Shown here: positions 1 through 20,107 of the stretch, one piece after another | Layout: every line of letters starts with the position of its first letter | Position numbering within the stretch: position 1 is the stretch's first letter | NCBI RefSeq assembly: GCF_003477995.1 | Contig: NZ_QUEM01000032.1 | Location: 1-42,488 of the forward strand | Direction: 5' to 3' | DNA from: Bacteroides sp. OF04-15BH | Lineage (GTDB): Bacteria; Bacteroidota; Bacteroidia; Bacteroidales; Bacteroidaceae | DNA length: 42,488 bases | Made by a program: the position numbers and the translations under genes | The notes under the pieces: model-generated | What the model saw: only the letters and a program-made list of their open reading frames with translations | The model's database searches: none | What the model was told of the DNA's origin: nothing

Positions 1-1116
1 AGGGGGGAAGAGGGCAGTAATGCCCTTGACCTACCCGATCGTCCGTCCGACCTCGCCCAGCGTGACGGGCGGGCGGTGAGAAAAGGCAACGAGATAGCGA
101 AGCTGTACGCCGACAACCGGGTGGATGTCATCATCTATGCGGTGGAAAAATCGCTGGACTCGTACAAGTTCAACCTGCTGCACTGCAAGCAGACGTTCAT
201 CAGTCAGCTGAAGAGCGGAGCGATGGGCGCGAGAACCATAGACGAGGGAGCGATGGACGAGAAGTCGGGCATGAATTTTTCGGAATACATGGCGATACTG
301 TCGGGAAACACCGACCTGCTGGACAAGGCGAAGCTGGAGAAGAAGATTGCCTCGCTGGAGGGTGAACGCAAGTCCTTCAGCAAGGGCAAGCGCGAGTCCG
401 AACTGAAACTGGAGGGCAAGACTGGAGAACTGAGGAACAACCAGGCCACCATAGTCGCCATGACGGAGGACTGGGAGAAATTCACCGCTGCCGCCCGGAC
501 AGACCAGGAAGGCAACCGGCTGAACCTGCTCAGGATTGACGGGCTGGATTCCACCGACGAGAAGACAATCGGCAAGCGCCTGCAGGAGATAGCCAGGAAT
601 GCCACGACTGGCGGACAGTACAAGCGCGTGGGAGAACTGTACGGCTTCCCCATTGAGGTGGTCAGCGAAAGGACGCTCAAAGACGGGCTGGAGTTCTGCG
701 ACAACCGTTTTGTGGTGGCAGGCAACTACAGGTACAGCTACAACAACGGGCATCTGGCGATGGCTGACACACACGCCGCCGCCATGAATTTTCTGAACGC
801 ACTGGAGAGGATACCGGGTATCATCGACCAGTACAGGAAGAAGAACGAGGTGCTGGAGCGGGAAATCCCGCAGTTGCAGGAGATAGCCGGAAAGACATGG
901 AAGAAGGAGGACGAGCTGAAACGGCTGAAGTCCGAACTCGCCGCACTGGACCGCAAGATACAGCTGGAGCTGGCTCCGCCAAACGAAAAAACACTAGAAC
1001 AAGCACATCAGGAAAATGTACAAGTTTTGCCTAAAAAGGTTGCTAAACCTAATAATGAAGGAAAAGGCTGTGTCACGATAGCTATATCTAAGAAAAGTAA
1101 TGAGATTAAACTATAA
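1..1116 (+). CDS. 3' end of giant SNF2-type helicase/N6-methylase ICE protein (5' partial)
   Basis: The reading frame is open from base 1, so the gene starts outside the window; the GTG at 76 is not the real start. The first residues contain helicase motif VI (QRDGRAVRKGN at about codons 20-30), followed by the helical tail seen in the roughly 2000-residue helicase/DNA-methylase proteins of Bacteroides conjugative transposons. Charged coiled-coil-like stretches lie around codons 120-165 and 295-345. The expected role is DNA remodelling or modification linked to ICE maintenance or anti-restriction; this is family inference, since the methylase part is not in view. From about base 985 the composition changes sharply from GC-rich to AT-rich and the last ~40 codons look foreign, so the original C-terminus was probably replaced when the downstream cargo was acquired. 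Confidence 0.8.
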   Translation, partial: RGEEGSNALDLPDRPSDLAQRDGRAVRKGNEIAKLYADNRVDVIIYAVEKSLDSYKFNLLHCKQTFISQLKSGAMGARTIDEGAMDEKSGMNFSEYMAILSGNTDLLDKAKLEKKIASLEGERKSFSKGKRESELKLEGKTGELRNNQATIVAMTEDWEKFTAAARTDQEGNRLNLLRIDGLDSTDEKTIGKRLQEIARNATTGGQYKRVGELYGFPIEVVSERTLKDGLEFCDNRFVVAGNYRYSYNNGHLAMADTHAAAMNFLNALERIPGIIDQYRKKNEVLEREIPQLQEIAGKTWKKEDELKRLKSELAALDRKIQLELAPPNEKTLEQAHQENVQVLPKKVAKPNNEGKGCVTIAISKKSNEIKL

Positions 1117-1197: not shown

Positions 1198-2070
1198 TTA
1201 TTTTATTGGAAGCTGAGAAGAGTTTATTCCGTATTTCTCTTTGAACACTCTTGAAAAATGTGCCAAACTTTTGAATCCAACTTGCAGATAGATATCTGAG
1301 GCCTTCTTGTGATGATTGATTATCAGGTTATACGCTTCTTCCAATCGCTTATTAATGAGCCATTTTTCTGGTGAAAGAGTGCTGATTTTTCGGAAATCCC
1401 GCTTGAAAGAAGTCAGACTACGTCCAGTGGAGTGAGCAAATTGGTTCAGCGACATGTCGCACATATAGTTTTCATTCATGAACTCTTCTATGTCTATCTT
1501 ATATGACTGATGGAAATTGAATAAGTACTTGTAAAATACCTTATCTGTTTGTAACAGGGCAAGAAGACCTTCATATAGTTTCAATTCCATTAGTTCGGGT
1601 GTTGGTTTCACATTAAACTCGAAATAAGGTTGTAGGGAGAGAAACAAACTTTTTAGGTTCGGTTTCAATGGAACTTGTATAATGGGTTGAACATCCAACT
1701 TGCTGTTTTCAAAAAAATCAGAAGCGTAATCTGCCAATATCCCCATTTTGCTTTTCAGAAAGTTACGACGAAACACGAGAAATACACCTCGATATTCTTC
1801 CCCATTGGACGACGGCTGTTTGACTACTAATATACGCTGGTCTCTGTGCAGAAATACACATTCACCTTTACGGACAACAGTTGTCTTTTTGTTTTGCGTA
1901 ATGAGCATTTCACCGGAGTATATATATATAAGGTAATGAAAATTCATAAATTTATCAAATACTCGACTTTTTACTGAATGATAACAGAAAAATACGTCCG
2001 AGTAATTGAACGAAATATGTTCAGGTCCAAGTGTCATATTAATATGATTAAAGTTATAAATTATAAGCAA
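1198..2070 (-). CDS. AraC-family transcriptional regulator
   Basis: This 290-residue protein has an N-terminal cupin-like sensing region (about residues 10-190) and a C-terminal double helix-turn-helix of the AraC type (about 195-288; RSLTSFKRDFRK and VGFKSLAHFSRVFKEKYG are recognisable). AraC proteins bind promoter half-sites and activate or repress in response to a ligand or partner. It is transcribed away from the dehydrogenase-like gene at 2218 and shares a ~150-base promoter region with it, so it probably controls that gene and perhaps the redox genes beyond. Translation could also start at the Met at residue 12. The gene is AT-rich like its right neighbour and unlike the helicase gene to its left. 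Confidence 0.85.
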   Translation of the reverse strand: MLIIYNFNHINMTLGPEHISFNYSDVFFCYHSVKSRVFDKFMNFHYLIYIYSGEMLITQNKKTTVVRKGECVFLHRDQRILVVKQPSSNGEEYRGVFLVFRRNFLKSKMGILADYASDFFENSKLDVQPIIQVPLKPNLKSLFLSLQPYFEFNVKPTPELMELKLYEGLLALLQTDKVFYKYLFNFHQSYKIDIEEFMNENYMCDMSLNQFAHSTGRSLTSFKRDFRKISTLSPEKWLINKRLEEAYNLIINHHKKASDIYLQVGFKSLAHFSRVFKEKYGINSSQLPIK

Positions 2071-2217: not shown

Positions 2218-3120
2218 ATGTTCAAACGAATTGTAGTAATAGATGAAACTCTGCTGGATGAAAATGCCTTGCAGGAACTCTACAAACAAGGTGAAGAAGT
2301 TATCGTATATCACGATTTCCCTGATGATGAAGAAATAATAAAGAAACGTATCGGAGATGCAGACTGCTTGTTGGTGTCATATCGTACTCGAATTGACAAA
2401 ACTATCCTTGACGCTTGTCCTTCTCTTCGTTATATCGGAATGTGTTGTACCATCTATGAACCTCAATGCTGTAATGTGGATCTTCAAGAAGCCTTTAAAA
2501 AAGGAGTTATGGTAACGGGGATAAAAGATTATGGTGACGAAGGTGTTGTAGAGTACGTGGTTTCCGAGCTTATAAGGTTACTGCACGGCTTTGGAGGGCA
2601 AAGATGGCAGGAGGAAAGTCTTGAACTTACAAAACAGAGGATTGGTATCGTTGGATTGGGTAAAACAGGCCGTATGATTGCGGATGCATTGCACTTCTTT
2701 GGGGCGTCGGTTTTTTATTATTGCCGCACGGCCAAAACTGATATATCCGAGTATGCTTATATGCCTTTGCACGAACTTCTTAAAAAATGTGATATTATTT
2801 GTACATGCCTTCCGCGCAACACTATATTGTTGGGAAAAGAGGAGTTTAACATAATGGGCAATCGTAAGATTCTGATTAATACGTCCGTTGGAGCAACTTT
2901 CGATATAGAAGCACTTAAAATTTGGTTGAATAAAAGTCCACAAAATTTTTATTTGTGTGATGCGGTCGGTATGGGTAACATGATGACGGTTCTGTCCAAT
3001 CACAAACAGGTTATATATACTCCATATATAGCCGGACTTGCACGCCAAAGTGTGGAAAGACTTGGTCAGAAAGTACTTCAGAATATGCAGAAATACACGA
3101 TGGACTTTTCAGGTAAGTAG
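2218..3120 (+). CDS. D-2-hydroxyacid dehydrogenase-like NAD-binding protein, catalytic residues lost
   Basis: The 300-residue protein has the fold signature of D-isomer-specific 2-hydroxyacid dehydrogenases, including the nucleotide-binding GIVGLGKTG and the C-terminal TPxIAGL region. The residues that do chemistry in this family are changed: the usual Asn-Thr-Ala-Arg-Gly reads Asn-Thr-Ser-Val-Gly (Val224 for Arg), the TPHIAG histidine is Tyr270, and the DVFExEP glutamate segment reads DAVGMGN. It may therefore bind NAD(H) without classical dehydrogenase activity, perhaps as a redox sensor or structural homologue. The start at 2218 fits the family N-terminus and the -7 box; an in-frame ATG at 2146 would lie upstream of that promoter. 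A 70-base gap separates it from the Tat-exported reductase gene. Confidence 0.8.
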   Translation: MFKRIVVIDETLLDENALQELYKQGEEVIVYHDFPDDEEIIKKRIGDADCLLVSYRTRIDKTILDACPSLRYIGMCCTIYEPQCCNVDLQEAFKKGVMVTGIKDYGDEGVVEYVVSELIRLLHGFGGQRWQEESLELTKQRIGIVGLGKTGRMIADALHFFGASVFYYCRTAKTDISEYAYMPLHELLKKCDIICTCLPRNTILLGKEEFNIMGNRKILINTSVGATFDIEALKIWLNKSPQNFYLCDAVGMGNMMTVLSNHKQVIYTPYIAGLARQSVERLGQKVLQNMQKYTMDFSGK

Positions 3121-3159: not shown

Positions 3160-3167
3160 TAATTTTG
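3160..3167 (+). promoter_or_regulatory. Candidate -7 promoter box before the redox/Tat operon
   Basis: TAATTTTG fits the Bacteroides TAnnTTTG -7 consensus and lies 23 bases upstream of the reductase start codon. No clear TTTG -33 box is present, so regulation by an activator is possible. Confidence 0.4.
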
Positions 3168-3190: not shown

Positions 3191-4609
3191 ATGGACGATA
3201 AAAAACAGAAAAATGATAAGGGAATGTCCCGCCGAAATATGCTGAAATGGCTGGCAGCAGGGACTATCTCAGCTGTAGCTGGGAGTTATGGCTGGCGGCG
3301 GACGATGTCTTGCGGGAAGGATGGATATTCTACGGCAGGAGTCATGCCGGAGATTATTCCTACTGACAAAATGACTTATCGAACCGATCCGCATACGGGG
3401 AAAAAGGTTTCCTTGCTGGGCTACGGGTTGATGCGTCTACCGGTAAAGGAGGGAGCCAATCCGAACTCGGACGAAGTGGATCAAGACATGGTGAACAAGC
3501 TGGTGGATTATGCTATCGCACACGGTATCAACTACTTTGATACAGCGCATCCGTACCATAAAGGAATGTCGCAGATAGCTATCGGCAAGGCGTTGAAAAA
3601 GTACCCGCGCGATAAATTTTTTCTTGCTACCAAGATGCCGACACCCCATATGCCAACACTGGAGCAGGCAAAGGAAATCTTTGAGAAACAACTTAGGGAC
3701 TGTCAAGTGGAGTATTTTGACTACTACCTACTACACAACCTTCAGACAATTGAGGTATATAAAGAAATCTATGAAAACCGAGGCATACTGCATTATCTGC
3801 TGGAACAAAAACGAAAAGGACGTATTCGAAACTTAGGTTTCTCGTTCCACGGCACCCGTTCGCTGATGGAGTATCTGCTGAATCTCGACCTGCAATGGGA
3901 CTTTGTGCAGATCCAGTGTAACTACCACGACTGGGACCGAGGTGCCGAACTTCCGGCATGGATGCAACAAAGCGAACGGGTCCCAGCACGGTGGATGTAT
4001 GAAAAACTGACTGAGAAGCAGATTCCCATTACCGTGATGGAGCCACTGCTTGGCGGTCGTCTGACACGATTAAGCCGTAGTGCGATTGCTATACTAAAAC
4101 AGGCTGCACCAGAGCAAAGCATTGCGTCATGGGCTTTTCGATTTGTCGGATCATTACCCAACATTCTTTGTGTACTGAGTGGTATGACCTATATGGAGAA
4201 CCTTCAAGAGAATATATGTACGTTTTCACCGCTACAACCACTATCGGAGGAGGAACACAAGGTACTAGATAAAGCTCTGGATGTCTTTTTAGGCAACCGC
4301 ACCGTACCGTGTACCGGTTGCCAATATTGTACACCTTGTCCTTACGGAGTGGATATTCCTGCTGTTTTTGCCCACTATAATAAGTGCGTGAACGAAGAGC
4401 AGATGCCTAAAGATCGTATGGATGAGGACTATCGCCGCGCACGTAGGCGGTTCCTAATAGGTTACGACCGCAGCGTACCTGAATTACAGCAGGCTAACCG
4501 CTGTATTCAGTGCGGGCAGTGTGTGTCGAAGTGTCCGCAGTGGATCAACATCCCAAAAGAAATGCAGAAGATAGATCGTTTTGTGGAAAAATTAAAGCTT
4601 GAGAAATGA
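3191..4609 (+). CDS. Tat-exported aldo/keto reductase with C-terminal ferredoxin domain
   Basis: The 472-residue protein starts with a twin-arginine signal (Ser13-Arg14-Arg15-Asn-Met-Leu-Lys, then a hydrophobic stretch to about residue 35), predicting folded export across the inner membrane. An aldo/keto reductase barrel follows with the full catalytic tetrad visible: Asp117, Tyr122, Lys148 and His182. The C-terminal ~100 residues carry two ferredoxin-like cysteine sets, Cys374/377/380/383 and Cys438/441/444/448, enough for two [4Fe-4S] clusters. Cytosolic relatives use NADPH, which is not expected outside the cytoplasm, so electrons may arrive through the clusters instead. The stop overlaps the next start (ATGA), indicating coupling with the NapH/NapG-like protein, its likely electron donor. 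The substrate is unknown. Confidence 0.85.
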   Translation: MDDKKQKNDKGMSRRNMLKWLAAGTISAVAGSYGWRRTMSCGKDGYSTAGVMPEIIPTDKMTYRTDPHTGKKVSLLGYGLMRLPVKEGANPNSDEVDQDMVNKLVDYAIAHGINYFDTAHPYHKGMSQIAIGKALKKYPRDKFFLATKMPTPHMPTLEQAKEIFEKQLRDCQVEYFDYYLLHNLQTIEVYKEIYENRGILHYLLEQKRKGRIRNLGFSFHGTRSLMEYLLNLDLQWDFVQIQCNYHDWDRGAELPAWMQQSERVPARWMYEKLTEKQIPITVMEPLLGGRLTRLSRSAIAILKQAAPEQSIASWAFRFVGSLPNILCVLSGMTYMENLQENICTFSPLQPLSEEEHKVLDKALDVFLGNRTVPCTGCQYCTPCPYGVDIPAVFAHYNKCVNEEQMPKDRMDEDYRRARRRFLIGYDRSVPELQQANRCIQCGQCVSKCPQWINIPKEMQKIDRFVEKLKLEK

Positions 4610-6129
4610 AAAACAGATATAAAATCATAAGGGTCTGGGCAGCGATTATATGCTGGTCTCTCATTACGGGATTATTCCTCGACTTTACTGGAACATTGCA
4701 TCCCTATTTTGGTTTTCTTGCCAAGTTGCAATTTTTACCAGCATTATTGGCTGCTAACGTGTTGGTTGTTCTGCTCTGGGCGGTCGTGACTTTTGTGTTT
4801 GGGCGTATTTACTGCTCGGTCGTCTGCCCGCTAGGCGTGATGCAAGATATCGTTTCCTATTTCTCTGGCAAACGGAAGAAGCATAAGTATCGTTTCTCCT
4901 ATTCACCCGAAAAAAAACTACTAAGATACAGTGTGCTTGTGGCTTTTATCATCGCAGTTTTTGTAGGATTGACTGTCATATACACAACGCTTGCTCCGTA
5001 TTCTTCGTATGGAAGGATAGCTACCAACTGGTTCGCACCGATTTGGCGGGGAATGAATAACGTGCTGGCTTACTTATCGGAACAAGCAGACAGCTATGCC
5101 TTCTACCGCGTGGATATCTGGATAAAAGGACTAACTACTTTCATCGTCTCAGGCCTTATCTTCGTCGGGATCAGTTTCCTAGCATGGAAGCATGGACGGA
5201 CCTATTGCAACACAATTTGTCCAGTTGGCACACTGTTGAGTTTTATCAGTCGTCATTCGCTGCTACGCATTACGGTGGACACAACCAAATGCAACAGTTG
5301 TGGATTGTGTTCCCGCAATTGCAAGGCTGCCTGCATCGATACCAAACAGCATAGCATCGATGGTAGCCGTTGTATCACCTGTTTCAACTGTATCGAAACC
5401 TGCAAGAAAGGAGCGTTGTCTTACAAATTGCACCTTCCGTTTAGGAAAAATAATGAGGCAGATATACCGGAAGTCAAGAAAGAAACAGAAGGACAGGTGA
5501 ATGAGAGCCGCCGCAAGATGCTGATGTTTACGGCAACGCTGGCAGGAACATCTATATTGGCACAAGCCAAACAAACCACAAAAGAATTTGTAGCGGCTAC
5601 GGAACGCAAAAGTATCGCTAGACGCAAACAACAGATTGTACCTCCAGGGGCGTTGAATGCTCGTAACATGGCTAACCATTGTACTGCCTGTCAACTCTGT
5701 GTAAATTCTTGCCCCAATCAGGTGCTCCAACCATCTGACAGGTTGGAAACATTCATGCAACCCGTCATGTCTTACGAGCATGGTTTTTGCCGAAGTAATT
5801 GCAACACGTGCTCGCAGGTCTGCCCTGCAGGGGCCATACGTCCCATATCGTTGGAAAAAAAAGCGTCTGTCCAAGTGGGCCATGCTGTGTGGATTGCAGC
5901 CAACTGCGTAGTGAATACCGACGGGGTAAGTTGTGGCAACTGCGAGCGTCACTGTCCCAACGGGGCCATCATGATGGTGGCGAAGGACAAGGATAACCCC
6001 GACTCGCTGAAAATCCCGATAGTGGATGCCGAACGGTGCATCGGTTGCGGCGCATGCGAATACGTGTGTCCGGCACGTCCGTTCAGTGCCATATACGTGG
6101 AAGGACACGAAAATCACAGAATCTTGTAA
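4606..6129 (+). CDS. NapH-NapG-like fusion: membrane polyferredoxin with internal twin-arginine motif
   Basis: The 507-residue protein joins two modules. Residues 1-225 are a NapH-type membrane domain with about four to five membrane spans and two Cys-x3-Cys-Pro motifs (Cys70/74 and Cys201/205). Two [4Fe-4S] motifs follow (Cys229/232/235/239 and Cys256/259/262/266). Then comes an internal Tat-like motif, Ser301-Arg302-Arg303-Lys-Met-Leu, with a hydrophobic segment, and a NapG-like domain starting at Pro-Pro-Gly-Ala (346-349) with four more cysteine sets (first Cys359/362/365/369). In Nap systems NapH and NapG are separate proteins passing electrons from quinol to periplasmic acceptors. Here they could pass electrons from menaquinol to the exported reductase encoded immediately upstream. 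GC content rises within the NapG part, from about 5890. Confidence 0.82.
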   Translation: MKNRYKIIRVWAAIICWSLITGLFLDFTGTLHPYFGFLAKLQFLPALLAANVLVVLLWAVVTFVFGRIYCSVVCPLGVMQDIVSYFSGKRKKHKYRFSYSPEKKLLRYSVLVAFIIAVFVGLTVIYTTLAPYSSYGRIATNWFAPIWRGMNNVLAYLSEQADSYAFYRVDIWIKGLTTFIVSGLIFVGISFLAWKHGRTYCNTICPVGTLLSFISRHSLLRITVDTTKCNSCGLCSRNCKAACIDTKQHSIDGSRCITCFNCIETCKKGALSYKLHLPFRKNNEADIPEVKKETEGQVNESRRKMLMFTATLAGTSILAQAKQTTKEFVAATERKSIARRKQQIVPPGALNARNMANHCTACQLCVNSCPNQVLQPSDRLETFMQPVMSYEHGFCRSNCNTCSQVCPAGAIRPISLEKKASVQVGHAVWIAANCVVNTDGVSCGNCERHCPNGAIMMVAKDKDNPDSLKIPIVDAERCIGCGACEYVCPARPFSAIYVEGHENHRIL

Positions 6130-6141
6130 ACCACGGGAACA

Positions 6142-6549
6142 ATGAAAGATTTAATCGAACTGTTGCATGACGGCAATACGCTGGTTGTGGCGAACGGTGA
6201 GGTCTGCGCTTTTCAAGGTCGTGGCATATCCGACCTTTACCACTTGCTCCGTGACGATGCCGGATTTCTGCAAGGAGCCTTCGTAGCCGACAAGGTTGTG
6301 GGCAAAGGGGCAGCGGCTTTGATGGTTCTCGGCGGCGTGAGCCGGCTCCATGCCTGCCTAATCAGTGAACCTGCCCTGCTCCTGCTGAGGATAAGCCGGA
6401 TACGGGTTTCCTATGATAAAAAAGTCCCACAAATCCAGAACCGCACGAAAACCGGCATCTGCCCAGTGGAAGCACTCTGCCGCAATGCGGCAACGGCAGG
6501 AGAATGCCTGCCCTTGATAGAAGAATTTATGAACTCAACCAGACAATAG
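6142..6549 (+). CDS. DUF1893 domain protein
   Basis: The 135-residue protein resembles the DUF1893 family (small proteins with a deaminase-like fold and no established reaction). Visible features are an N-terminal region reading as in that family (LVVANGEVCAFQGRGI), a glycine-rich DKVVGKGAAALM segment at about residues 50-62, and cysteines near 75, 107, 112 and 120. No signal peptide is seen, so it should be cytoplasmic. It follows the polyferredoxin gene by 12 bases and precedes the receptor gene by 14, so it belongs to the same transcript. Its base composition is GC-rich like the receptor gene, suggesting the two arrived together. A role in handling an imported cofactor is conjecture. Confidence 0.75.
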   Translation: MKDLIELLHDGNTLVVANGEVCAFQGRGISDLYHLLRDDAGFLQGAFVADKVVGKGAAALMVLGGVSRLHACLISEPALLLLRISRIRVSYDKKVPQIQNRTKTGICPVEALCRNAATAGECLPLIEEFMNSTRQ

Positions 6550-6563
6550 AAGAAACAACAGGA

Positions 6564-8471
6564 ATGAAAAGCCTCAAAGAATATTTGCTGACAGGTGCCG
6601 TTTTACCGCTTGCATTTCAGGTACAGGCACAGGTAGCCGACACGACTTCCATAGACAGGACTTACTCCATCGGCGAGGTGGTCGTGACGGGAACACGCAG
6701 TGAGACCGATGTGCGACATCTCTCACAGACCGTTTCGGTGGTAAACCGGAGCAAGTTCGAACAGACGATGCAGTCCTCCCTGCTGCCTGTGCTGACGGAA
6801 CAAGTGCCGGGACTGTTCGTCACCTCACGTGGCGTGATGGGCTACGGCGTGTCGAACGGTGCGGCGGGCGGTATCTCGTTGCGTGGGCTGAGCGGAGGCA
6901 ACGCCCGGCTGATGGTGCTGATAGACGGGCATCCGCAGTATGCCGGCATCTTCGGCCACCCGATAGCCGACGCTTACCAGACACTGCTTGCCGACCGGGT
7001 GGAGGTACTGCGCGGTCCGGCTTCCGTGCTCTACGGTTCTAACGCGATGGGCGGTGTCATCAACATCGTCACCCGGAAAATGCGGGAAGACGGTGTGCGG
7101 ACGAACCTGCATTTGGGCTACGGCTCTTACAACACGCTGGAAACGGAACTGACCAACCGCATCTGCAAGGGCCGTTTCTCGTCCGTCGTCAGCGGTTCGT
7201 ACAACCGCACAGACGGGCATCGTGCTGATATGGACTTCGAGCAGTACGGCGGCTACGCCAAGTTAGGATACGAACTGACCGACAACTGGAATTTGAGGGG
7301 CGACGTGAACGTGACCCATTTCAACGCCTCCTATCCCGGTCCCGTATCTGCTCTGCTTTTGGACGGTGACCAGCGCATCACACGCGGTATGACCTCGCTG
7401 GCCGTGGAGAATAACTACGACCAGACTTCCGGCGCATTGAGTTTCTTCTACAACTGGGGAGACCATTGGATAAACGACGGATATACGCCCTCTGCCGGTG
7501 AAACTCCGCAGGATGACCGTTTCAATTCATCCGACGATATGATGGGACTTTCCCTGTACCAGAGTACACGCTTCTTCAAGGGCAACCGCATCACCTTCGG
7601 GTTCGACTGGTTTCGTTACGGGGGACACGCATGGAGCGAATATGTAAGTGGCGAGAAGGCAGGAACATGCAGCGACATCGTGGACAGGCATGAAAACGAG
7701 GTGGCGGGTTACATGGACATACGTCAGGACTTCGGACGATGGCTGACGCTCAATGCCGGTTTGCGCGTGGACCATCACTCCCGTGTGGGTACAGAATGGG
7801 TGCCGCAGATGGGGCTGGCGTTTCATCTGCCCCGTTCCATCGAACTGAAGGCATCGGCTTCGAAAGGTTTCCGTTACCCGATTCTCCGTGAGATGTACAT
7901 GTTCCCGCCACAGAATCCCGACCTGCAGCCCGAGTCGATGTGGAACTATGAGCTGGCTTTCTCGCAACGGTTGCTCGACGGCCGCTTTCAATACGGAATA
8001 AACCTTTTCTATATCGATGGCAAAAACTTGATTCAGACCTTGCCTAATCCAAATGGGAGCGGAATGCTGAACCAAAATTCGGGGAAAATCGACAATACGG
8101 GCGTGGAACTACAAGCGGCATACCATATCAGTCCAGTTTGGTCGGTGGATGCCAACTACAGTTTCCTGCACATGGAGAATCCTGTCATCGCCGCACCTGA
8201 ACACAAGCTTTATACCGGGGTGAACTTCTCGGAAGGACGCTGGACGGTTTCTACCGGATTGCAGTACGTTGAAGGACTTTACACATCGGTCGGCAAAAAG
8301 GAAACGAAGGAAAACTTTGTCCTCTGGAACCTGCGCGTTTTCTTCCGTGCATCAAAATGGCTCGACATTTGGGCGCGTGGAGAGAACCTGTTGGCGCAAC
8401 GCTATGAAATCATGGCGGGTTATCCCATGCCGCAAGCTACGGTTATGGGCGGTATAAACATTAACTTCTGA
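6564..8471 (+). CDS. TonB-dependent outer-membrane receptor
   Basis: The 635-residue protein has a signal peptide (MKSLKEYLLTGAVL..., cleavage after about Gln-Ala-Gln), a TonB-box-like stretch (GEVVVTGTRSE), a plug domain with the classic VEVLRGPASVLYGSNAMGGVINIVT region at about residues 145-170, and a C-terminal beta-barrel ending in the aromatic INF. Its size and plug match siderophore, haem or cobalamin receptors rather than the ~1000-residue SusC type. The start at 6564 is chosen because it begins the signal peptide; an upstream in-frame ATG at 6504 lies inside the DUF1893 gene. It imports an unidentified ligand across the outer membrane using TonB energy. It is GC-rich compared with the Tat genes downstream. 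Confidence 0.92.
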   Translation: MKSLKEYLLTGAVLPLAFQVQAQVADTTSIDRTYSIGEVVVTGTRSETDVRHLSQTVSVVNRSKFEQTMQSSLLPVLTEQVPGLFVTSRGVMGYGVSNGAAGGISLRGLSGGNARLMVLIDGHPQYAGIFGHPIADAYQTLLADRVEVLRGPASVLYGSNAMGGVINIVTRKMREDGVRTNLHLGYGSYNTLETELTNRICKGRFSSVVSGSYNRTDGHRADMDFEQYGGYAKLGYELTDNWNLRGDVNVTHFNASYPGPVSALLLDGDQRITRGMTSLAVENNYDQTSGALSFFYNWGDHWINDGYTPSAGETPQDDRFNSSDDMMGLSLYQSTRFFKGNRITFGFDWFRYGGHAWSEYVSGEKAGTCSDIVDRHENEVAGYMDIRQDFGRWLTLNAGLRVDHHSRVGTEWVPQMGLAFHLPRSIELKASASKGFRYPILREMYMFPPQNPDLQPESMWNYELAFSQRLLDGRFQYGINLFYIDGKNLIQTLPNPNGSGMLNQNSGKIDNTGVELQAAYHISPVWSVDANYSFLHMENPVIAAPEHKLYTGVNFSEGRWTVSTGLQYVEGLYTSVGKKETKENFVLWNLRVFFRASKWLDIWARGENLLAQRYEIMAGYPMPQATVMGGININF

Positions 8472-8486
8472 TTAAACAAATAAATT

Positions 8487-8996
8487 ATGCAGACCACAGT
8501 AAAACTTTACGTTTATGGCTACCGGGAAGTCAGGACTTACCTTGCAGCCTCCTTGTTCGTTTTGGGCAATATCGCCTTGCCCCAGTTCTTCCATCTCTTT
8601 CCACAGGGCGGGGTGACATGGCTTCCCATCTATTTCTTTACATTGGTAGGAGCCTACAAATACGGCTGGAAAGTGGGGCTGCTTACCGCCGTGCTTTCCC
8701 CTTTGGTCAATTCTGCACTGTTTGGTATGCCTCCGGCTACTGCTCTTCCGGCCATTTTGCTTAAATCAGGATTACTGGCTTTGGCAGCGGGATTCACGGC
8801 ACACCGCTATCGGAAAGTTTCCGTGTATCTCTTGTTGGTAGTCGTGCTGTCGTATCAGACTATCGGAACACTGGGCGAATTGATAATAAAAGGGAATTTT
8901 TATCTTGCCGTACAGGATTTCCGCATCGGCATACCGGGTATGTTGTTGCAGGTCTTTGGAGGATATTTTTTTATTAACCGCTTAATACGAAAATAA
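8487..8996 (+). CDS. ECF transporter S-component-like membrane protein
   Basis: The 169-residue, very hydrophobic protein has about five predicted membrane spans and a positively charged C-terminus. It resembles the substrate-binding S components of energy-coupling-factor transporters, which bind vitamins or metals and borrow a shared energising module; no such ATPase genes are here, so it would use the host's. It sits 15 bases after the TonB receptor and 2 bases before tatA, suggesting that receptor and S component act in series on one ligand. Family membership is judged from size, topology and the pattern [20 protein letters not shown] at about residues 31-50; the ligand cannot be read from sequence. 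Confidence 0.65.
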
Positions 8997-8998
8997 CT

Positions 8999-9202
8999 AT
9001 GTTTGGAATTGGAACACAAGAAATTCTTTTTATATTACTGATTGTATTGTTGTTTTTCGGAGGCAAGAAAATACCGGAACTGATGAAGGGTCTTGGGAAA
9101 GGTGTGCGTTCATTTAAAGACGGAATGAATAATATCGAGAAAGATGCAAATGGGTCTGAAGAGGTTTCTGCTAACACGGAAAAAAGAAATAGTAATGGAT
9201 AA
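8999..9202 (+). CDS. tatA: Sec-independent protein translocase TatA
   Basis: The 67-residue protein has the TatA layout: a short N-terminal membrane helix (residues 6-20), the hinge Phe-Gly-Gly-Lys-Lys-Ile-Pro-Glu-Leu (about 20-28), an amphipathic helix ([16 protein letters not shown]) and a charged tail. TatA forms the size-adjustable pore for folded proteins. The stop overlaps the tatC start by 8 bases. Two Tat-motif proteins in the same operon (at 3191 and 4606) are natural substrates. The gene is AT-rich. Confidence 0.93.
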
Positions 9203-9998
9203 TGACAAGCAATCGTTTTGGGATCATCTTGATGTGTTACGTGCGGCGATAATCAGAATCGTCGCCGTAACCGTTATATTCGGAGTTTTGGCTTTCTTTT
9301 TTAAGGAACAACTGTTCGCTGTCGTTCTTGCTCCAAAAGATTCCGGATTCATAACCTACCGATTGTTTGATGTCATAAATGGGATGGTAACAGATTCTTA
9401 TATTACTGATTTTTCCATAAGGCTCATCAATACTGGATTGGCGGAGCAGTTTATCATACATATGAAAACTGCAATGTATGCAGGAGTATTATGCGCTTCT
9501 CCCTATATTCTTTATCAATTATTTAGATTCGTTTCTCCTGCCTTATATACCAATGAACGTAAATATGCTACACGGGTTGTAGGTAGCGGCTATTTGATGT
9601 TTGTTGTGGGAGTACTACTCAGTTATTATATGATTTTTCCACTGACATTCCGCTTTTTAGGAACTTACCAAGTAAGCGGAGAGGTTGAAAATATGATAAC
9701 ATTACAATCCTATATATCGACACTTGTAATTATGTCGCTGGCGATGGGAATTGTTTTCGAGATGCCGGTCCTGTCATGGCTGTTTGCCAAACTAGGATTC
9801 CTTTCAGCGGATTTTATGTGTCGTTATCGTAAACATGCTGTCATAATCATTCTAATTATTGCAGCTATTATTACACCGACTTCCGACATTTTCACTCTAT
9901 TGCTTGTCTCCCTGCCAATGTGGATTTTGTATGAGATAAGTATTTATATAGTAAAAATAGCAACAACGTGTAAAAATGAAATTACTATTACAATATAA
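9195..9998 (+). CDS. tatC: Sec-independent protein translocase TatC
   Basis: The 267-residue protein has six predicted membrane spans and the TatC N-terminal signature [10 protein letters not shown], with Asp where most homologues have Glu. TatC recognises twin-arginine signals and recruits TatA. The start at 9195 matches the family N-terminus and overlaps tatA; the upstream Met at 9144 would add residues lying within tatA. The 3' end overlaps rteA by 23 bases, so the export genes and the ICE regulator are probably on one mRNA. No separate TatB is present, as expected for a two-component TatAC system. Confidence 0.93.
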
Positions 9999-12288
9999 GA
10001 TTCTGCTTGGATATTTAATATTAACGACAGTATTGGGTGGTGTAATAGCTATTTTTATACATGAACGACATCAATTAAGAGACATAGAACTAGAAACGGC
10101 AAAGATTCGCTCGGTACGTCTTGGCATAAACAAGATGCATCGCAACATAATGGAGCTTGCTATTAGTGGTGAAAGTGTAGTTGTATGGGATAAAGCAGAC
10201 TATCAAAACTATCTCCATCATCGCCTACAGACAGACAGTATACTACAAACATTGGAGCCTCTTTGTCGGGAGTATGTACAATCCAATCAGATAGATACCC
10301 TACGTTATTTGTTAGCTGAAAAAGAAACACATCTGCTACATATTATGCAGAATATCAAACAACGAAATGAAAGGGAGGAAATGCTGGCAAACCAGCTGCC
10401 TGAAGTGGCAAAACGGGCAACAAGAGTCCGTACTGTTGAGCAAAAGAAAAAAGGAATTGCCGGATTCTTCGGTATGAAGGAAGAAATACGGATAATGCCA
10501 TCCAACAAAGAACTGCACGCTTTCAGCGACAGCCTGATAGCCACACAGCAACGACAGGCACAAAAAATGGATACATACGCTGACAGTCTGCGTATTCGCA
10601 ATAGGGAATTGAACAGAACACTGAACAGTCTATTAAGAGACCTTGACAGGCAGGCATATCTTTTATTTAGCAAAAGCGAACAGAAAATAGAGGATACTTG
10701 GAATGAATCATTCTGGCTATTAGCAATAACCTTGTCAGTTGCAATTGGCTTGCTGTTTCTGTCTTACCTCACCATTCACCGTGAAATCAAGCGCAATGTT
10801 GACGAAAAAAGAAAATGCGAGAAACTAATCGAAAAATTACAGGAAACCATCCGGCAGAACGAGGAATTGACAAAAGAAAGACAGAACATCATGCAAACTA
10901 TCACCCATGAACTACGTTCTCCGCTATCTGCTATACGCGGATATGCGGAAATGATAGTTACTGATGAAGAAAGTTCTCTCCGTATCCGCCATGCGAATAT
11001 CATAGGTGAAGCTTCCGGGCGGATGGCAGGAATGATAGACACACTGCTGAATTATTTTCATTTGGACAGCGGAAAGGAAACTGTTCGTTCCCTTCCATTC
11101 AGGTTAAAAAGCATTGCGGACACATTGGAGATAGAGTTTATGCCACAGATGGAAAAGAAGCGGCTGGCATTTGAAACAGTCAATGAGGTGGACAAGGTGG
11201 TCATGGGTGACCGAAACCTAATACTTCGCATCGGCAGCAATCTGCTGTCCAATGCGCTGAAGTTTACGCAGAAAGGTTCGATCAAATTAATTACCAAATA
11301 TTCTGATGGTAATTTCATATTGGTAGTGGACGATACCGGTACAGGGATAGACAAGGAGAAACAAGAACAGATATTCAAGCCATTTGAGCGGCTGGGCAAC
11401 GCCGCCACGCAGGACGGTTTTGGGTTGGGACTCGCCATCGTAAGGAGTCTTACGGAGCTGATGGGGGGTAACATCAGGGTGGAAAGCGTGCTAGAAAAAG
11501 GCAGTCGGTTTACCGTCACACTGCCGCTAGAAAAGGCGACCGAAACAGAAAGACAACCCTATACCATAACGCACAATCTTTCCGGCTGTTCCGTGCTTTC
11601 CATAGACAATGACCGGATGATACTTGACATGCTGCATGACATGTTCGAGCAAAGCGGAGTGCATTGTGAAATCTGTACAGACATGGGCCGGCTCACGGAA
11701 AAACTACGCGATAACCACTATGACCTGCTGACGACCGACCTGAAGATGCATAATTTCAGCGGCTATGACATTCTGGAACTGCTCCGTACGTCGGACATAG
11801 GAAACTCGCGCACCATCCCCGTGATGGTGGTGACCGGCTCGAAAAGTATCACAAAAGAGGAACTGGCAGGTGCGGGCTTCGGCTCGGTACTGTACAAGCC
11901 GTTCTCCATCGACGAACTGCTGGCAGCCGCAGAAGAATGTATCAGCGAGGACAGTCCCCCACGCGTAGACCTCGGCCCGCTGTTTGCATACGGCGAGAAG
12001 CGGCAGAGGCTGGAATGTCTGGTCAGGGAAACGGAGAAGGAAATGGCCGCCATACGGGAGGAAGCGGAAAGGTGTGACAGGGACAGACTGGACTACTGGA
12101 TACACCATATCCGCAGCTCGTGGATGCTGATACATGCCGAAGGGCCGCTGCAGGAGCTGTATGACGTGCTCCACGGAAACGGGACAGCAGAAGAAATCAG
12201 GGAGTATGCCGGAAAGGTAATCAGTCAAGGCGAAACGATCATCCGGCTCGCTCGAAAGGAAATGGAGAGAACGGTATGGGAAGAATAA
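9976..12288 (+). CDS. rteA: RteA hybrid sensor histidine kinase
   Basis: The 770-residue protein has an N-terminal membrane helix (about 7-27), an external sensing region, a second span (about 255-280), a HisKA domain with phospho-acceptor His311 (ITHELRSP), an ATPase domain (N box ...NLLSNALKF; DTGTGID; GFGLGLAIV), a receiver domain with Asp588, and a C-terminal HPt-like helix with His711. In CTnDOT, RteA senses an unknown cue and activates RteB. Here it overlaps tatC and rteB rather than following tetQ. The first ~460 codons are AT-rich and the rest GC-rich, with the change near 11380, so the gene may itself be a recombinant. Confidence 0.9.
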   Translation: MKLLLQYKILLGYLILTTVLGGVIAIFIHERHQLRDIELETAKIRSVRLGINKMHRNIMELAISGESVVVWDKADYQNYLHHRLQTDSILQTLEPLCREYVQSNQIDTLRYLLAEKETHLLHIMQNIKQRNEREEMLANQLPEVAKRATRVRTVEQKKKGIAGFFGMKEEIRIMPSNKELHAFSDSLIATQQRQAQKMDTYADSLRIRNRELNRTLNSLLRDLDRQAYLLFSKSEQKIEDTWNESFWLLAITLSVAIGLLFLSYLTIHREIKRNVDEKRKCEKLIEKLQETIRQNEELTKERQNIMQTITHELRSPLSAIRGYAEMIVTDEESSLRIRHANIIGEASGRMAGMIDTLLNYFHLDSGKETVRSLPFRLKSIADTLEIEFMPQMEKKRLAFETVNEVDKVVMGDRNLILRIGSNLLSNALKFTQKGSIKLITKYSDGNFILVVDDTGTGIDKEKQEQIFKPFERLGNAATQDGFGLGLAIVRSLTELMGGNIRVESVLEKGSRFTVTLPLEKATETERQPYTITHNLSGCSVLSIDNDRMILDMLHDMFEQSGVHCEICTDMGRLTEKLRDNHYDLLTTDLKMHNFSGYDILELLRTSDIGNSRTIPVMVVTGSKSITKEELAGAGFGSVLYKPFSIDELLAAAEECISEDSPPRVDLGPLFAYGEKRQRLECLVRETEKEMAAIREEAERCDRDRLDYWIHHIRSSWMLIHAEGPLQELYDVLHGNGTAEEIREYAGKVISQGETIIRLARKEMERTVWEE

Positions 12289-13586
12289 TAGTGATAGAGG
12301 ACAACCCGGTATTCCGTGATCATGTCTGCGGAATGCTGGAGAAGGCAGGCTACGAGACCCGCACTGCATACGACTGTGCCGGGGCACGGAGGCTGCTGGA
12401 GGAACTGGAGGATGGGGACATCATCGTGTCGGACCTGCGTCTGCCCGACGGAGAATGTACGGAAGTGCTGGAGCGGATGCGGGCAGCGGGTATCAGAAAC
12501 CCGTTTGTCATCATGACCGACTATGCGCAGGTCGCGTCGGCGGTCAGCTCCATGAGGCTGGGAGCCGAGGACTATATCCCCAAGACCCTGCTGCAGGAAA
12601 AGCTGCTTCCGAGGATAAATGAGCTGGTACGCAAATCGGAAAGAAGGCATACCATGCCCATACTGGAGCGCAGAAGTGCCGCATTCCGAACAATCGACCG
12701 GCGTATCTCACTGGTAGCCCCGACGGACATAGGGGTGCTGATACTTGGAGAAAACGGCACGGGCAAGGAACACGTAGCAGAAAAGATACATGCGCAGAGT
12801 ACCCGGCAGAAAGGTCCGTTTGTCGCGATAGACTGCGGTATGCTGACACGGGAGCTGGCGGCATCCGAGCTGTTCGGATACGAGAAAGGCGCATTTACGG
12901 GAGCCATAACCGGAAAGAAGGGCTGCATGGCGGAGGCTGACGGCGGCACGCTGTTTCTGGACGAGGTGGGCAACCTGCCCGCTGAGGTACAGCAGAAACT
13001 GCTACGTGCGCTGCAGACCAAATGCTACCGTCCGACGGGCTGCACCCGCGAGCGGAAAGCGGATGTGCGCATCGTGGCGGCGACCAACGAGAATCTGGAG
13101 AAGGCAGTGGAGGAAGGACGTTTCCGGCGGGACCTGTATCACCGCCTGAAGGAGTTTGTCATCAAGATACCGCCGCTGCGGGAGTGCCGGGAGGACATAC
13201 TGCCCCTTGCGGAGTTTTTCCGGGAGCTTGCCAACGAGGAACTGGGACGGCATACGGAAGGATTCGACAAGGAGGCGGAAAAGGAACTCATGAGGCGGAT
13301 GTGGGCAGGAAATGTGAGGGAACTGAAACAGACGGTGCGTTCCGCCGTCCTGCTGACGGAAGGAAGGCTGATAGGAGCCGACAGGCTGGAAGCGGAAAGT
13401 ACGGCACAGGCAGGCAGCTCCCTGCTGCTGAAAGACGGGAATGAGGAAAGGGAACGCATCGTGCGGGCACTGGCACAGGCGGACGGGAACCGCGAAGTGA
13501 CTGCCGGACTGCTGGGTATCAGCCGCACGACCCTGTACAACAAGATGAAAGAATACGGTATCATGCAGAAAAAGAGCGAAAAATGA
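12276..13586 (+). CDS. rteB: RteB sigma-54-dependent response regulator
   Basis: The 436-residue NtrC-type activator has a receiver domain with Asp53, a AAA+ domain with Walker A GENGTGKE (158-165), the sigma-54-contacting GAFTGA loop (205-210) and Walker B GGTLFLDE, and a Fis-type helix-turn-helix at the C-terminus (about 395-430). In CTnDOT, RteB activates rteC and functions needed for excision and transfer. It overlaps rteA by 13 bases, fitting a coupled two-component pair. All key motifs are intact, so it should be a working activator. Confidence 0.93.
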   Translation: MGRIIVIEDNPVFRDHVCGMLEKAGYETRTAYDCAGARRLLEELEDGDIIVSDLRLPDGECTEVLERMRAAGIRNPFVIMTDYAQVASAVSSMRLGAEDYIPKTLLQEKLLPRINELVRKSERRHTMPILERRSAAFRTIDRRISLVAPTDIGVLILGENGTGKEHVAEKIHAQSTRQKGPFVAIDCGMLTRELAASELFGYEKGAFTGAITGKKGCMAEADGGTLFLDEVGNLPAEVQQKLLRALQTKCYRPTGCTRERKADVRIVAATNENLEKAVEEGRFRRDLYHRLKEFVIKIPPLRECREDILPLAEFFRELANEELGRHTEGFDKEAEKELMRRMWAGNVRELKQTVRSAVLLTEGRLIGADRLEAESTAQAGSSLLLKDGNEERERIVRALAQADGNREVTAGLLGISRTTLYNKMKEYGIMQKKSEK

Positions 13587-13607: not shown

Positions 13608-13615
13608 TATCTTTG
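13608..13615 (+). promoter_or_regulatory. Promoter -7 box of the leader RNA downstream of rteB
   Basis: TATCTTTG fits the TAnnTTTG consensus and lies 22 bases after the rteB stop. Transcription would start near 13622 and enter the folded leader. Confidence 0.5.
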
Positions 13616-14545: not shown

Positions 14546-15163
14546 ATGGAACACCTCATATTGACAGAAACAGACTTCTTCCGTCTGATAGACAACCCCG
14601 GCTCTACCGGACTGGGAACCGCATACAACGAGTTCACGACCACAGTCGTATCCCTGTGCAAGGAAAAGGAAAGTATCTGCCGGACTGTTTTCGCACTGAG
14701 CTATGCGGAAACGGAACTGCAATATCACGATGCCATGCAGGAGACGGACTCCAGCCGCAGCATGTATGTGAGAAAGGCGCTGTCGTTTGTGCGCAAGATG
14801 CTGAAATATTATCAGGTAGGGCTGCATCGAGGCGGAGCCTTTGACGGAGGCGAAAAGACAAACCAAAGGCAGGACGAAGTCCCAGCGATGCAGTGGACGG
14901 GAAGCACGGCCGAGCTGGTGGAACTGATTTACGGTCTGGACGAGATGAAGCTCATCAACGGAGGGGAAACGGGCATCAAGGAACTGCTGGCGAGATTCTG
15001 CCGCATGTTCGGTGTGGAGATAAAGGAGAACCAGTGCTACAACACCTATGCGGATATCAAGCGGCGGAAGAACGAGAGCCGGACGTATTTCTTTGACAGG
15101 GCGGCGGAACGGCTGAACCGCAGGATGATGCGGGACGAGGAGGCGGAACGGAAGAGGCGGTGA
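14546..15163 (+). CDS. rteC: RteC regulatory protein
   Basis: The 205-residue protein matches the RteC family in length and in its C-terminal half: a WTGSTAELVELIYGLDEM segment (about 115-132) and a basic end with IKRRKNESRTYFFDRAAERL at about 169-188. In CTnDOT, RteC binds upstream of the excision operon and activates excision genes once RteA/RteB are active. The gene is monocistronic by position, with its own folded leader and a palindrome array upstream. It ends before a new promoter at 15217. Confidence 0.85.
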   Translation: MEHLILTETDFFRLIDNPGSTGLGTAYNEFTTTVVSLCKEKESICRTVFALSYAETELQYHDAMQETDSSRSMYVRKALSFVRKMLKYYQVGLHRGGAFDGGEKTNQRQDEVPAMQWTGSTAELVELIYGLDEMKLINGGETGIKELLARFCRMFGVEIKENQCYNTYADIKRRKNESRTYFFDRAAERLNRRMMRDEEAERKRR

Positions 15164-16197: not shown

Positions 16198-18207
16198 TTA
16201 TCTGCCGCTGAGGAGGTATTGCAGTTCGGGGTCGGACTGTATGCGCTGCAACTCATCAGCGACAATCTGCCGGACCTCGGCACGGATACGGTTGTAGTTA
16301 TCCTGGATCATCTCCTTCATGCGGTCGTTGCCGCCGGCATCGGTAAAGTCGGTGATGACGGGTATAGGCCGGTAAGCCTGTTCCTCACGCTTCACTTTCT
16401 CGGCATCGACCACAATCTCGCAATGGAAAATCTTCTGTTCGATACGCTCGTCATAGTTGTCGGCGACGGCTCCCACGAACATGCCCTGCGTGAGCGTGGA
16501 AATCTTGCTCGCCGGGATAAGACTCTCCATCTGCGTATTGATGGAAGTGGACTTGTCCTCGCGGTTGATGGTGATGCTCTGCCGCCTCTGGAGAATCTTG
16601 CCGAAACGCTCGGAGAGGGTCTTGGCGGTCTCGCCCACGACTTGACCGGAAAAGATGTTGCCGACGGTGTTCATGACCACGGCGGCCTCCTTGTCGCCGT
16701 AGTCACGCTTGAGCTGGGAAAAGTCCTGAAAACCCAGCAGGGTGGAAACCTTGTTGCTTCGGGCGGTGGCAATCAGGTTGTCCAGCCCCTTGAAGTAAAT
16801 CGTGGGCAGTTCGTCGATGATGATGGAGGACTTCAGCCTGCCCTTCCTGTTGACGAGCTTGACGATGCGCGAGTTGTACAGCCCCAACGCCGCCCCGTAG
16901 ATATTCTGGCGGTCGGGATTGTTGCCGACACATAGAATCTTCGGCTCGTCGGGATTGTTGATGTCGAGTGTGAACTCACTGTCGGACATGACCCAGTAGA
17001 GTTGCGGGGAAATCATGCGCGAGAGCGGAATCTTCGCCGAGGCTATCTGACCGGCGAGCTGTTCCATCGCCCCGCCCTGCCAGGCGTCCATGAACGGAGA
17101 AAGGTAGTTCTCCAGTTCGGGATAACTGGTGAGAATCGGGAACAGGTCCTCGTAACGGCGGTTGAGCAGCTCGATGGCATGGGGAAAGGTGCAGTATTTC
17201 CCGTCCTGATAGATACGGAGGAACCATATCACGGCGGCGAACAGGATAATCGGAGACTCGACAAAGAAGTCGCCCTGCTTCTGCACCCAGGTCTTGTTCA
17301 AATTGAGCATTATCGTGTAGGCACTCTCGTAAGCATCGGTGATGTCCTCCATGAAATCCGGATGGATGGGATTGCAGCGGTGCGAGCGCCGCGGGTCGTC
17401 GAAGTTGATGACGTAGAACTTCGGCCTGACCCTGTATGCGTCCATGTGGTTCAGCAGGTGGTTGTAGGCGATGGTGGAAAGGTCGCTGAACTTGAAGTCG
17501 TAGATGTACATCGCAAAGCCCTTCTCAATCTGCTGTTTGATAAAGCTGTTCACCACGGCATAGGACTTTCCGCTGCCCGACGTACCCAGTACGATAGTGG
17601 CACGGAACGGGTTTACCACATTGATATAGCCATTGTTCCACTTCTTCCTGTAGTAGAAACGTGTGGGCAGATTGACGGAATACCCGTTCTCCATGAGGCG
17701 GGTCTCCTGCATGAAACTCTCGTTCTCGACATTGAACACGTCTTCCATGAGGTTGGTACGCAAAAGACGGCTCATCCATGTGCCCGCCATGAGCAGGCAG
17801 ACATAGCCCGCCGCCATCGAAGCGGTGTAAAGACCCGCAACCGCCTCTACCGGAAGCGGCAGGGAGAGCACCCACCAGTTGCCGAAGAACAGCGCCAGCC
17901 CCGCGGCAAGTACCGCCCAGATCCGGCGCCAGGTGATTTTTTCCTCCTTGACACCCTTCGTGCCGAGGCACGAGAGCGCAAGCAGAAGAAGGGCAAAGAG
18001 CTTCGTGTAGAGAATGTGATGGAACAGTCCGGCGGTACGGTCGAAGTTCATCAGTACCCGGTCCACGACACCTATGCCGATGCCCCACAGCCTTACGGCT
18101 TCGTAACAATACCAGTAAAGGTGGATGACCACCAGAATAATGCTTACGGCACGGAGAAAATCCATGATTTTCGCCAGTGCCCTCAAATCGTCTTCCTGTT
18201 GTGACAT
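16198..18207 (-). CDS. mobC: MobC-type coupling protein (T4CP, VirD4/TraG family)
   Basis: The 669-residue ATPase has about four N-terminal membrane spans (residues 15-150), then a RecA-like motor with Walker A GTSGSGKS (208-215) and Walker B SIIIDE (Asp465-Glu466). It belongs to the VirD4 coupling proteins that link the relaxosome to the type IV secretion channel; in CTnDOT the corresponding gene is mobC. It is last in the mobA-mobB-mobC operon, 32 bases after mobB. The late FTDAGGNDRMKEM and acidic tail are probably contact regions for the relaxosome. Confidence 0.9.
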   Translation of the reverse strand: MSQQEDDLRALAKIMDFLRAVSIILVVIHLYWYCYEAVRLWGIGIGVVDRVLMNFDRTAGLFHHILYTKLFALLLLALSCLGTKGVKEEKITWRRIWAVLAAGLALFFGNWWVLSLPLPVEAVAGLYTASMAAGYVCLLMAGTWMSRLLRTNLMEDVFNVENESFMQETRLMENGYSVNLPTRFYYRKKWNNGYINVVNPFRATIVLGTSGSGKSYAVVNSFIKQQIEKGFAMYIYDFKFSDLSTIAYNHLLNHMDAYRVRPKFYVINFDDPRRSHRCNPIHPDFMEDITDAYESAYTIMLNLNKTWVQKQGDFFVESPIILFAAVIWFLRIYQDGKYCTFPHAIELLNRRYEDLFPILTSYPELENYLSPFMDAWQGGAMEQLAGQIASAKIPLSRMISPQLYWVMSDSEFTLDINNPDEPKILCVGNNPDRQNIYGAALGLYNSRIVKLVNRKGRLKSSIIIDELPTIYFKGLDNLIATARSNKVSTLLGFQDFSQLKRDYGDKEAAVVMNTVGNIFSGQVVGETAKTLSERFGKILQRRQSITINREDKSTSINTQMESLIPASKISTLTQGMFVGAVADNYDERIEQKIFHCEIVVDAEKVKREEQAYRPIPVITDFTDAGGNDRMKEMIQDNYNRIRAEVRQIVADELQRIQSDPELQYLLSGR

Positions 18208-18239
18208 AATCTGTTTCTGTTTTCAAGTGAATGACTGAA

Positions 18240-19960: not shown

Positions 19961-19969
19961 CTTACATAA

Positions 19970-19982
19970 GGATTTAGTGGTT
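19970..19982 (-). promoter_or_regulatory. AACCACTAAATCC leader motif before mobA
   Basis: A 13-base motif on the minus strand ends 9 bases before the mobA start. Identical copies with the same spacing precede traI (27418) and traN (31478). Confidence 0.6.
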
Positions 19983-20107
19983 TGTATAAAAATGTGCCGG
20001 ACGGCAGCATCCGCAGACACGGCGCAGCCGGGAGACAGGCTTCCCGACTCCGGAGAGGAAGCCCCTCCCCGCATGGGGCAAGGTCGTTTCCGGGAGTAAC
20101 CGGAAAC

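Follow-up and report, generated by a model that had tools for sequence, protein, structure and literature searches.

A Tat, redox and TonB gene block in the tetQ position of a CTnDOT-family element, in front of a mosaic rteA

In CTnDOT, tetQ, rteA and rteB form an operon, and RteA and RteB are made only with tetracycline, according to the available part of PMC1976400. The accessible text of a 2025 review notes that many Bacteroidales ICEs are without CTnDOT-like regulatory genes and leaves their regulation to future work (PMC12632263), and the available part of PMC6281302 reports TatA and TatC in seven Bacteroides strains. A literature search, thin on subscription papers and covering its sources in part, returned no tat or other non-resistance cargo at rteA and no exchange of RteA sensors, and the passages of the CTnDOT/ICE literature that it covered do not name the signal of the RteA kinase.

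The window analyzed here, the whole stretch of 42,488 nucleotides from Bacteroides sp. OF04-15BH, resembles CTnDOT and CTnERL in having a methylase-rteA slot, cargo directly before rteA-rteB, RteC, and mob and tra genes, and differs from them in that its slot has a redox/Tat/TonB cargo and an AraC gene rather than tetQ. The relevant features are as follows.

1..1116, + strand: 3′ end of the conserved methylase/helicase gene of the ICE, bordering the cargo slot on its left and incomplete at the window edge
1198..2070, − strand: divergent AraC-type regulator (ExsA_N 62.6 bits, HTH_18 51.4 bits, both above cut-off)
2185, + strand: −7-like motif TACCTTTG, before the dehydrogenase gene
2218..3120, + strand: D-2-hydroxyacid dehydrogenase (2-Hacid_dh and 2-Hacid_dh_C above cut-off)
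3160..3167, + strand: candidate −7 motif TAATTTTG, before the operon; a TTTG 17-22 bases upstream is absent
3191..4609, + strand: aldo/keto reductase (AKR) with C-terminal 4Fe-4S motifs and N-terminal SRRNMLK (Pfam Aldo_ket_red and Fer4)
4606..6129, + strand: NapH-NapG-type fusion (NapHG) with an internal twin-arginine segment (NapH/NapG-type Fer4)
6142..6549, + strand: DUF1893/TM1506 protein (145 bits, cut-off 27)
6564..8471, + strand: TonB-dependent receptor (Plug and TonB barrel)
8487..8996, + strand: membrane protein with an ECF S-component fold (predicted fold; weak Pfam score)
8999..9202, + strand: TatA (TatA_B_E 51 bits, cut-off 21)
9198..9998, + strand: TatC (PF00902 216 bits; TIGR00945 159 bits, cut-off 132.7)
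9976..12288, + strand: RteA-type hybrid histidine kinase, mosaic (HisKA-HATPase-REC)
12276..13586, + strand: RteB-type sigma-54 response regulator (Response_reg-Sigma54-HTH_8)
14546..15163, + strand: RteC (PF09357 79.1 bits, cut-off 25.3)
16198..20074, − strand: three mobilisation genes, for a coupling protein, a relaxase and a MobC_2 family protein (mobC, mobB and mobA in the naming of locus L058)

An earlier reading, made from the sequence only, had proposed that this cargo takes the tetQ position, and the map agrees: the block lies between the methylase 3′ end and rteA-rteB, with rteC and the mob genes beyond. The slot contains no tetQ ORF and has the AKR to TatC genes instead, so the element is not CTnDOT itself. 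The methylase piece has no Pfam match; it is 82% identical in amino acid sequence to an L058 ORF that is annotated as N-6 DNA methylase and precedes tetQ there, and tetQ elements have this same methylase gene followed by tetQ-rteA-rteB. Downstream of rteB lie a RibD-like gene, RteC, a GNAT-like gene (below cut-off), the three mob genes and a TraG-type ATPase gene. Because RteC, the mob genes and the TraG-type ATPase stand downstream, we regard this as a CTnDOT-family ICE setting, and the methylase border and the position of rteA-rteB behind cargo are also those of that family. The regulators themselves are 38-39% (RteA) and 52-54% (RteB) identical to those of the tetQ type. Scans of the window gave no Rfam match at gathering scores and no tRNA, and a search of IMG/VR with TatC gave no relative. 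Among the 122 plasmid records that matched, the four best covered are from Bacteroidales, and their similarity is confined to rteB-rteC, at 68-70% over 11-13% of the query. An RteA match at E ≤ 1e-60 was obtained in at least 73 of the 301 genomes of the host's family; genome counts here are lower bounds (3, 2, 6 or 17 candidates per genome were scored, depending on the scan), and the weaker of these matches, which cover just the kinase part, may be other hybrid kinases.

The nine + strand genes claimed from 3191 to 13586 were verified in order, reading frame, strand and coordinates, and their junctions are as tight as had been described, each of the eight falling within −23 to +15 bases. They measure −4 (AKR/NapHG), +12 (NapHG/DUF1893), +14 (DUF1893/TonB, given the ATG at 6564 as TonB start; the longest ORF runs from 6504, and that start gives a 46-base overlap with DUF1893), +15 (TonB/S-component), +2 (S-component/TatA), −5 (TatA/TatC), −23 (TatC/RteA, the last 23 bases of tatC lying within rteA) and −13 (RteA/RteB). 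All nine reading frames are open. Two genes between the methylase and AKR, those for the AraC regulator and the 2-hydroxyacid dehydrogenase, were absent from the earlier list. The gene order of the block is not a matter of chance, because it recurs in a second element, L165, and, without TonB and the rte genes, on other contigs.

That the cargo has its own exporter is borne out, since TatA and TatC, both of which exceed curated cut-offs, adjoin proteins with conserved twin-arginine motifs. The Tat signal profile of AKR scores 16.8 bits, below the cut-off of 22.7, and its twin-arginine motif is conserved among relatives. These comprise 25 distinct proteins at least 40% identical over at least 380 aligned residues, five of them cut before the N-terminus by a locus edge; the motif is present in all 20 that have an N-terminus (19 by pattern, and TRREFL in L013 by eye). 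Most of the relatives also have a lipobox by a loose pattern; the window AKR has no lipobox Cys and, unlike most relatives, has F changed to M in its Tat motif. Of 10 NapHG fusions, 8 carry a twin-arginine segment between their NapH and NapG portions (no match in L009 and L017), which suggests that Tat and the usual route of membrane insertion may both act on a single NapHG polypeptide. In the window NapHG (4606-6129) this segment falls at about codons 300-325. The conserved motifs support the view that the TatAC of the block probably serves neighbouring proteins.

NapHG is like the NapGH quinol dehydrogenase in having a NapH-like membrane part and a NapG-like ferredoxin part, and differs in that these are fused and score far below the NCBIfam cut-offs for the equivalogs (NapH 86.6 against 234 bits, NapG 76.3 against 269 bits); unlike NapGH systems, the block has no nitrate reductase among its genes. 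The small membrane protein before TatA scores 25.8 bits against a cut-off of 30.7 for Pfam ECF_trnsprt. Foldseek comparison of its model with the PDB ranked ECF S-components or ECF transporter chains 1-16, RibU first, with TM 0.55-0.71 and a best E of 3.6e-3, so that none reached E ≤ 0.001; it is thus a putative S-component on the basis of its predicted fold. There is a hint that the role of this protein may be tied to Tat itself; a protein of this fold also stands directly before tatA-tatC without redox genes, in L169 and L024. For the TonB receptor the vitamin B12 receptor BtuB was the best PDB match, yet its NCBIfam TonB-B12 score is 145.7 against 599.7 bits and that identity was rejected. 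To call the cargo self-sufficient, as had been done, overstates the case: there is no ECF energising module among the block genes, and the host would have to supply TonB/ExbBD for the receptor.

The gene order was sought in other ICEs, as the sequence-only reading had proposed; it does recur, and the gene set is not special to the ICE of the window, as there is a related chromosomal operon. The recurrence is in L165 (G308:C14), in the order methylase, AraC, FMN-reductase, SDR, flavodoxin, NapHG-AKR-DUF1893-TonB-S-component-TatA-TatC and then, across the same 23-base overlap, RteA-RteB. The two ICEs share the seven cargo genes, the tatC/rteA overlap, rteB, a RibD-like gene and an rteC-like gene; L165 differs in having NapHG before AKR, more oxidoreductase genes upstream, and an RteA kinase part and RteB of the tetQ type. 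Their TonB receptors are 81% identical, and their DNA is 73% identical over 3.4 kb from TonB to the start of rteA. The run AKR-DUF1893-S-component-TatA-TatC without TonB or rteA is found in 11 of the best 30 TatC loci. In a conserved Bacteroidaceae operon (L166, L167, L170) six of the seven cargo genes are present at 44-71% amino acid identity, with NapHG first (L166, L167 (as two ORFs), L170), no TonB gene between DUF1893 and the S-component, and no rteA-rteB; L169 has only S-component-TatA-TatC. Because relatives have this TonB-less chromosomal operon, the cargo resembles a captured house operon with an added TonB gene, and this particular cargo belongs to a chromosomal type already known. 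Parts of it also precede rteA elsewhere: the order NapHG-AKR-417 aa-rteA occurs in L067 and L214, and TonB genes 80-86% identical to that of the window lie before rteA in L098 and L212 (L212 and L214 being the only ones used of 12 further flank regions mapped). TonB receptors 78-81% identical to the window's also lie among flavodoxin- and RibD-like genes in L022 (G001:C16) and L023 (G001:C7), away from any rteA in the stretch examined.

A cargo joined to rteA is the usual arrangement in the mapped loci, a trait of the family. The map covers 65 RteA loci: 60 regions taken from the family-wide matches, two plasmid records, two loci of G001 and the window itself. They are a non-random set that includes near-identical elements and leaves out about a dozen loci of tetQ score (554-563 bits). 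The first ORF of 100 aa or more upstream of rteA runs in the direction of rteA in 61 loci and against it in 3; one locus has no such ORF. The 61 co-directional gaps are ≤ 0 in 16 loci, 1-50 bases in 15 (including L064, L108 and L115, where the "upstream ORF" is a fragment of a broken rteA itself), 51-150 in 11 and >150 in 19. In ten loci tetQ abuts rteA at −1, and in L088 the two are separated by an ORF on the opposite strand. Other cargos before rteA are diverse, with flavodoxins, an iron-containing alcohol dehydrogenase, many unannotated genes and, judged by size and look, triads sized like RND efflux genes.

A whole or partial TatC adjoins rteA in 6 of 66 loci, and a set of 55 flank loci, some of them repeats of earlier ones, adds L162. 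The window, L165 and L108 (where rteA is broken) have an intact TatC together with TatA; in L097 a complete TatC stands beside a damaged TatA, and the TatC of L098, L109 and L162 is truncated. The overlap with rteA is 23-26 bases in the window, L165, L097, L098 and L108, and is lost in L162. A single origin of the junction received an AU p of 0.066 in the TatC tree. In L097 (oriented map 5206-13161) tatC stands beside rteA behind unlike genes, glycan enzymes by look. Because decayed tatC persists where the operon is gone, tatC-rteA adjacency alone proves no working link.

Between tatC and rteA, scans for transcription signals gave neither a promoter nor a terminator match that exceeds chance, and they gave no + strand terminator-like site between 8823 and 13825, the region total being at chance. 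The sigma-70-type promoter scan was at chance, and the Bacteroides pattern TTTG-N17-22-TAnnTTTG matches the window once, at 40839, a number equalled by shuffled sequence. The motif TAnnTTTG, which we take to be the Bacteroides promoter (−7) consensus, occurs 17 times in the window against 20.3 in shuffles, thus not above chance; on the + strand between 3160 and rteB it lies only at 3160 and at 8998 (over the tatA start), the next being at 13608, after rteB. Weak as they are, these signals fit transcription of rteA-rteB from the cargo promoter.

New beyond the earlier reading is that rteA is a mosaic gene, whose sensor part has almost certainly moved from one kinase/RteB backbone to another, sometimes along with cargo and sometimes alone. 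The DNA of the window matches that of L021 at 97% identity over 40-980, is unlike it between 980 and about nt 1800 of rteA, and is again 94-99% identical from there through rteB; on the methylase side the similarity of the window to L021, L165 and L027 stops at 980. The RteB proteins of window and L021 are 98% identical and their RteA sensors 27%. GC content is 37-53% in the cargo, 43% in 5′ rteA, 56-58% in 3′ rteA and rteB, and 56% in the transfer region. Judged by these similarities, the 5′ part of the window rteA came with the cargo, and the DNA from about 11776 is of the resident type.

In L165 the combination is another one: its sensor is 82-89% identical to that of L097 (HisKA 31%, RteB 45%) and 28-29% identical to that of the tetQ-type L027 (HisKA 76%, RteB 88%). 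The DNA similarity in rteA ends at nt 810-833 in three pairs; for L074/L097 and L072/L073 it begins at about the start codon, and for L097/L165 it begins 984 bases farther upstream, runs through tatA-tatC and stops before HisKA. In L067/L102 it spans only nt 129-677. The proposed sensor cassette would extend from the start codon to about nt 810-830. Near-alike sensors on unrelated kinase/RteB backbones are seen in L165, L097 and L074, in L072 and L073, and in L067 and L102.

Trees were built from 40 representatives of the 59 RteA proteins longer than 700 aa, leaving out the broken or cut ones of L064, L075, L108, L110, L115, L116 and L117. From HisKA onward the window groups with L021 (100/100), and L165, L073 and L074 with the tetQ type (100/100); in the sensor tree L165, L097 and L074 are together (100/100) and the window falls in a 20-row clade without L021 (99/98). 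AU tests reject two sensor clades on kinase data (p 1.5e-5, 6.4e-18) and two kinase groupings on sensor data (p 3.5e-8, 5.8e-71), values that are descriptive because the groups were named after the identities had been seen. Among the 780 representative pairs, 11 combine like sensors with unlike backbones, and 30 combine unlike sensors with like backbones. The predicted sensor is long and helical (pLDDT 82.4, pTM 0.54), with no PDB match at E ≤ 0.001. A sensor search found 1489 proteins at E ≤ 1e-20 among 4995 candidates, and the window's own sensor cluster has 6 member sequences on 4 contigs. Among the 120 matches listed, P0002 and P0003 are 94-99% identical to the window RteA throughout, and most others are 66-82% identical in sensor, 85-91% in kinase, 73-82% in REC and 61-64% at the C-terminus, P0020, P0115, P0116, P0117 and P0120 departing from this pattern. 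These profiles place the donor side of the window chimera near this listed group of sensor relatives.

We propose that recombination refilled the CTnDOT-family slot, bounded by the methylase 3′ end on one side and the regulators on the other, the incoming block being the AraC regulator, the hydroxyacid dehydrogenase, the Tat/NapGH/AKR operon with its TonB receptor, and 5′ rteA, and that the cargo transcript would also make RteA-RteB and so permit transfer. Electrons would pass from menaquinol through the NapH-NapG fusion to the Fe-S aldo/keto reductase, which Tat would export to the periplasm, and a cofactor or substrate would enter by way of the TonB receptor and the S-component. A single transcript would run from about 3170 through rteB; induction of the cargo, perhaps via the AraC protein, would raise RteA-RteB and then RteC, permitting excision and transfer. 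The cargo promoter would then be the counterpart of tetracycline-controlled tetQ expression in CTnDOT (see also PMC10865816). From its domains RteA probably still needs a stimulus of its own, in which case transfer would need both cargo induction and that signal. The proposal builds on gene order, slot position, the mosaic rteA, recurrence in a second ICE and twin-arginine motifs near tatAC; co-transcription of cargo and rteA-rteB, and a cargo-driven trigger of conjugation, are predicted by analogy. As this last step rests on analogy, we put the probability of the whole at roughly 0.6.

The same map would arise, which we think rather unlikely, if the site were a cargo hot spot with no regulatory meaning, where recombination in flanking conserved genes swaps cargo, rteA has a promoter inside the last cargo gene, and tight packing is compaction. 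The available parts of two papers describe the tetQ site as a hotspot for insertion and substitution of resistance genes (PMC6907783) and cargo changes by recombination between related Bacteroidales ICEs (PMC8102008). The 19 of 61 loci with gaps >150 bases have room for a separate rteA promoter, GC around the tatC-rteA junction is low (0.34-0.35), and tatC remnants adjoin rteA, all of which fits a hot spot; against it stand the lack of an above-chance promoter match between tatC and rteA, the co-direction in 61 of 65 loci and the 23-26-base overlaps in the window, L165, L097, L098 and L108. It is improbable, and slightly more so than the alternative that follows, that the block is a decaying relic whose Tat and redox genes no longer work and whose rteA is driven from elsewhere: the missing lipobox Cys and altered Tat motif of the window AKR and the decayed tatC of other elements would suit this, but nine of nine frames are open and the DNA shared with L165 is still 73% identical over those 3.4 kb.

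The other improbable alternative is that the RteA sensor reads a periplasmic state made by the cargo (redox, or an imported ligand) and that sensor and cargo for this reason travel together. The L097/L165 DNA shared from tatA-tatC into the sensor and ending before HisKA would agree with it, as would the arrival of the window's sensor and kinase part with the cargo. But the L074 sensor, 84% identical to that of L097 and 88-93% to that of L165, has no tat gene adjoining, the mapped sensors that come closest to the window's (L060, L066, L067) are beside other cargos, and L072 and L073 have a common sensor and unlike upstream DNA. Because one sensor type thus occurs with and without tat cargo, the idea is not supported. 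That sensor type simply follows cargo type was likewise rejected, like sensors standing beside unlike cargos.

Returning to the proposal that the cargo transcript also makes RteA-RteB, we suggest tentatively, at somewhat under even odds, a wider form of it, in which the transfer decision would consist of two exchangeable modules, a cargo operon promoter that makes RteA-RteB and a swappable RteA sensor cassette, so that elements could re-key conjugation, and to signals other than antibiotics too; for the window this would be a redox or nutrient condition. The window, L165 and their kin are elements that have rteA-rteB, yet behind non-tetQ cargo. The general rule, of varied cargo with rteA-rteB as its tail and an exchangeable sensor, is the part of specialist interest. 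If rteA-rteB is the tail of the slot content, the trigger of each element may be predictable from its cargo promoter, and the shuffled RteA sensors would be a natural set for finding the signal of the kinase.
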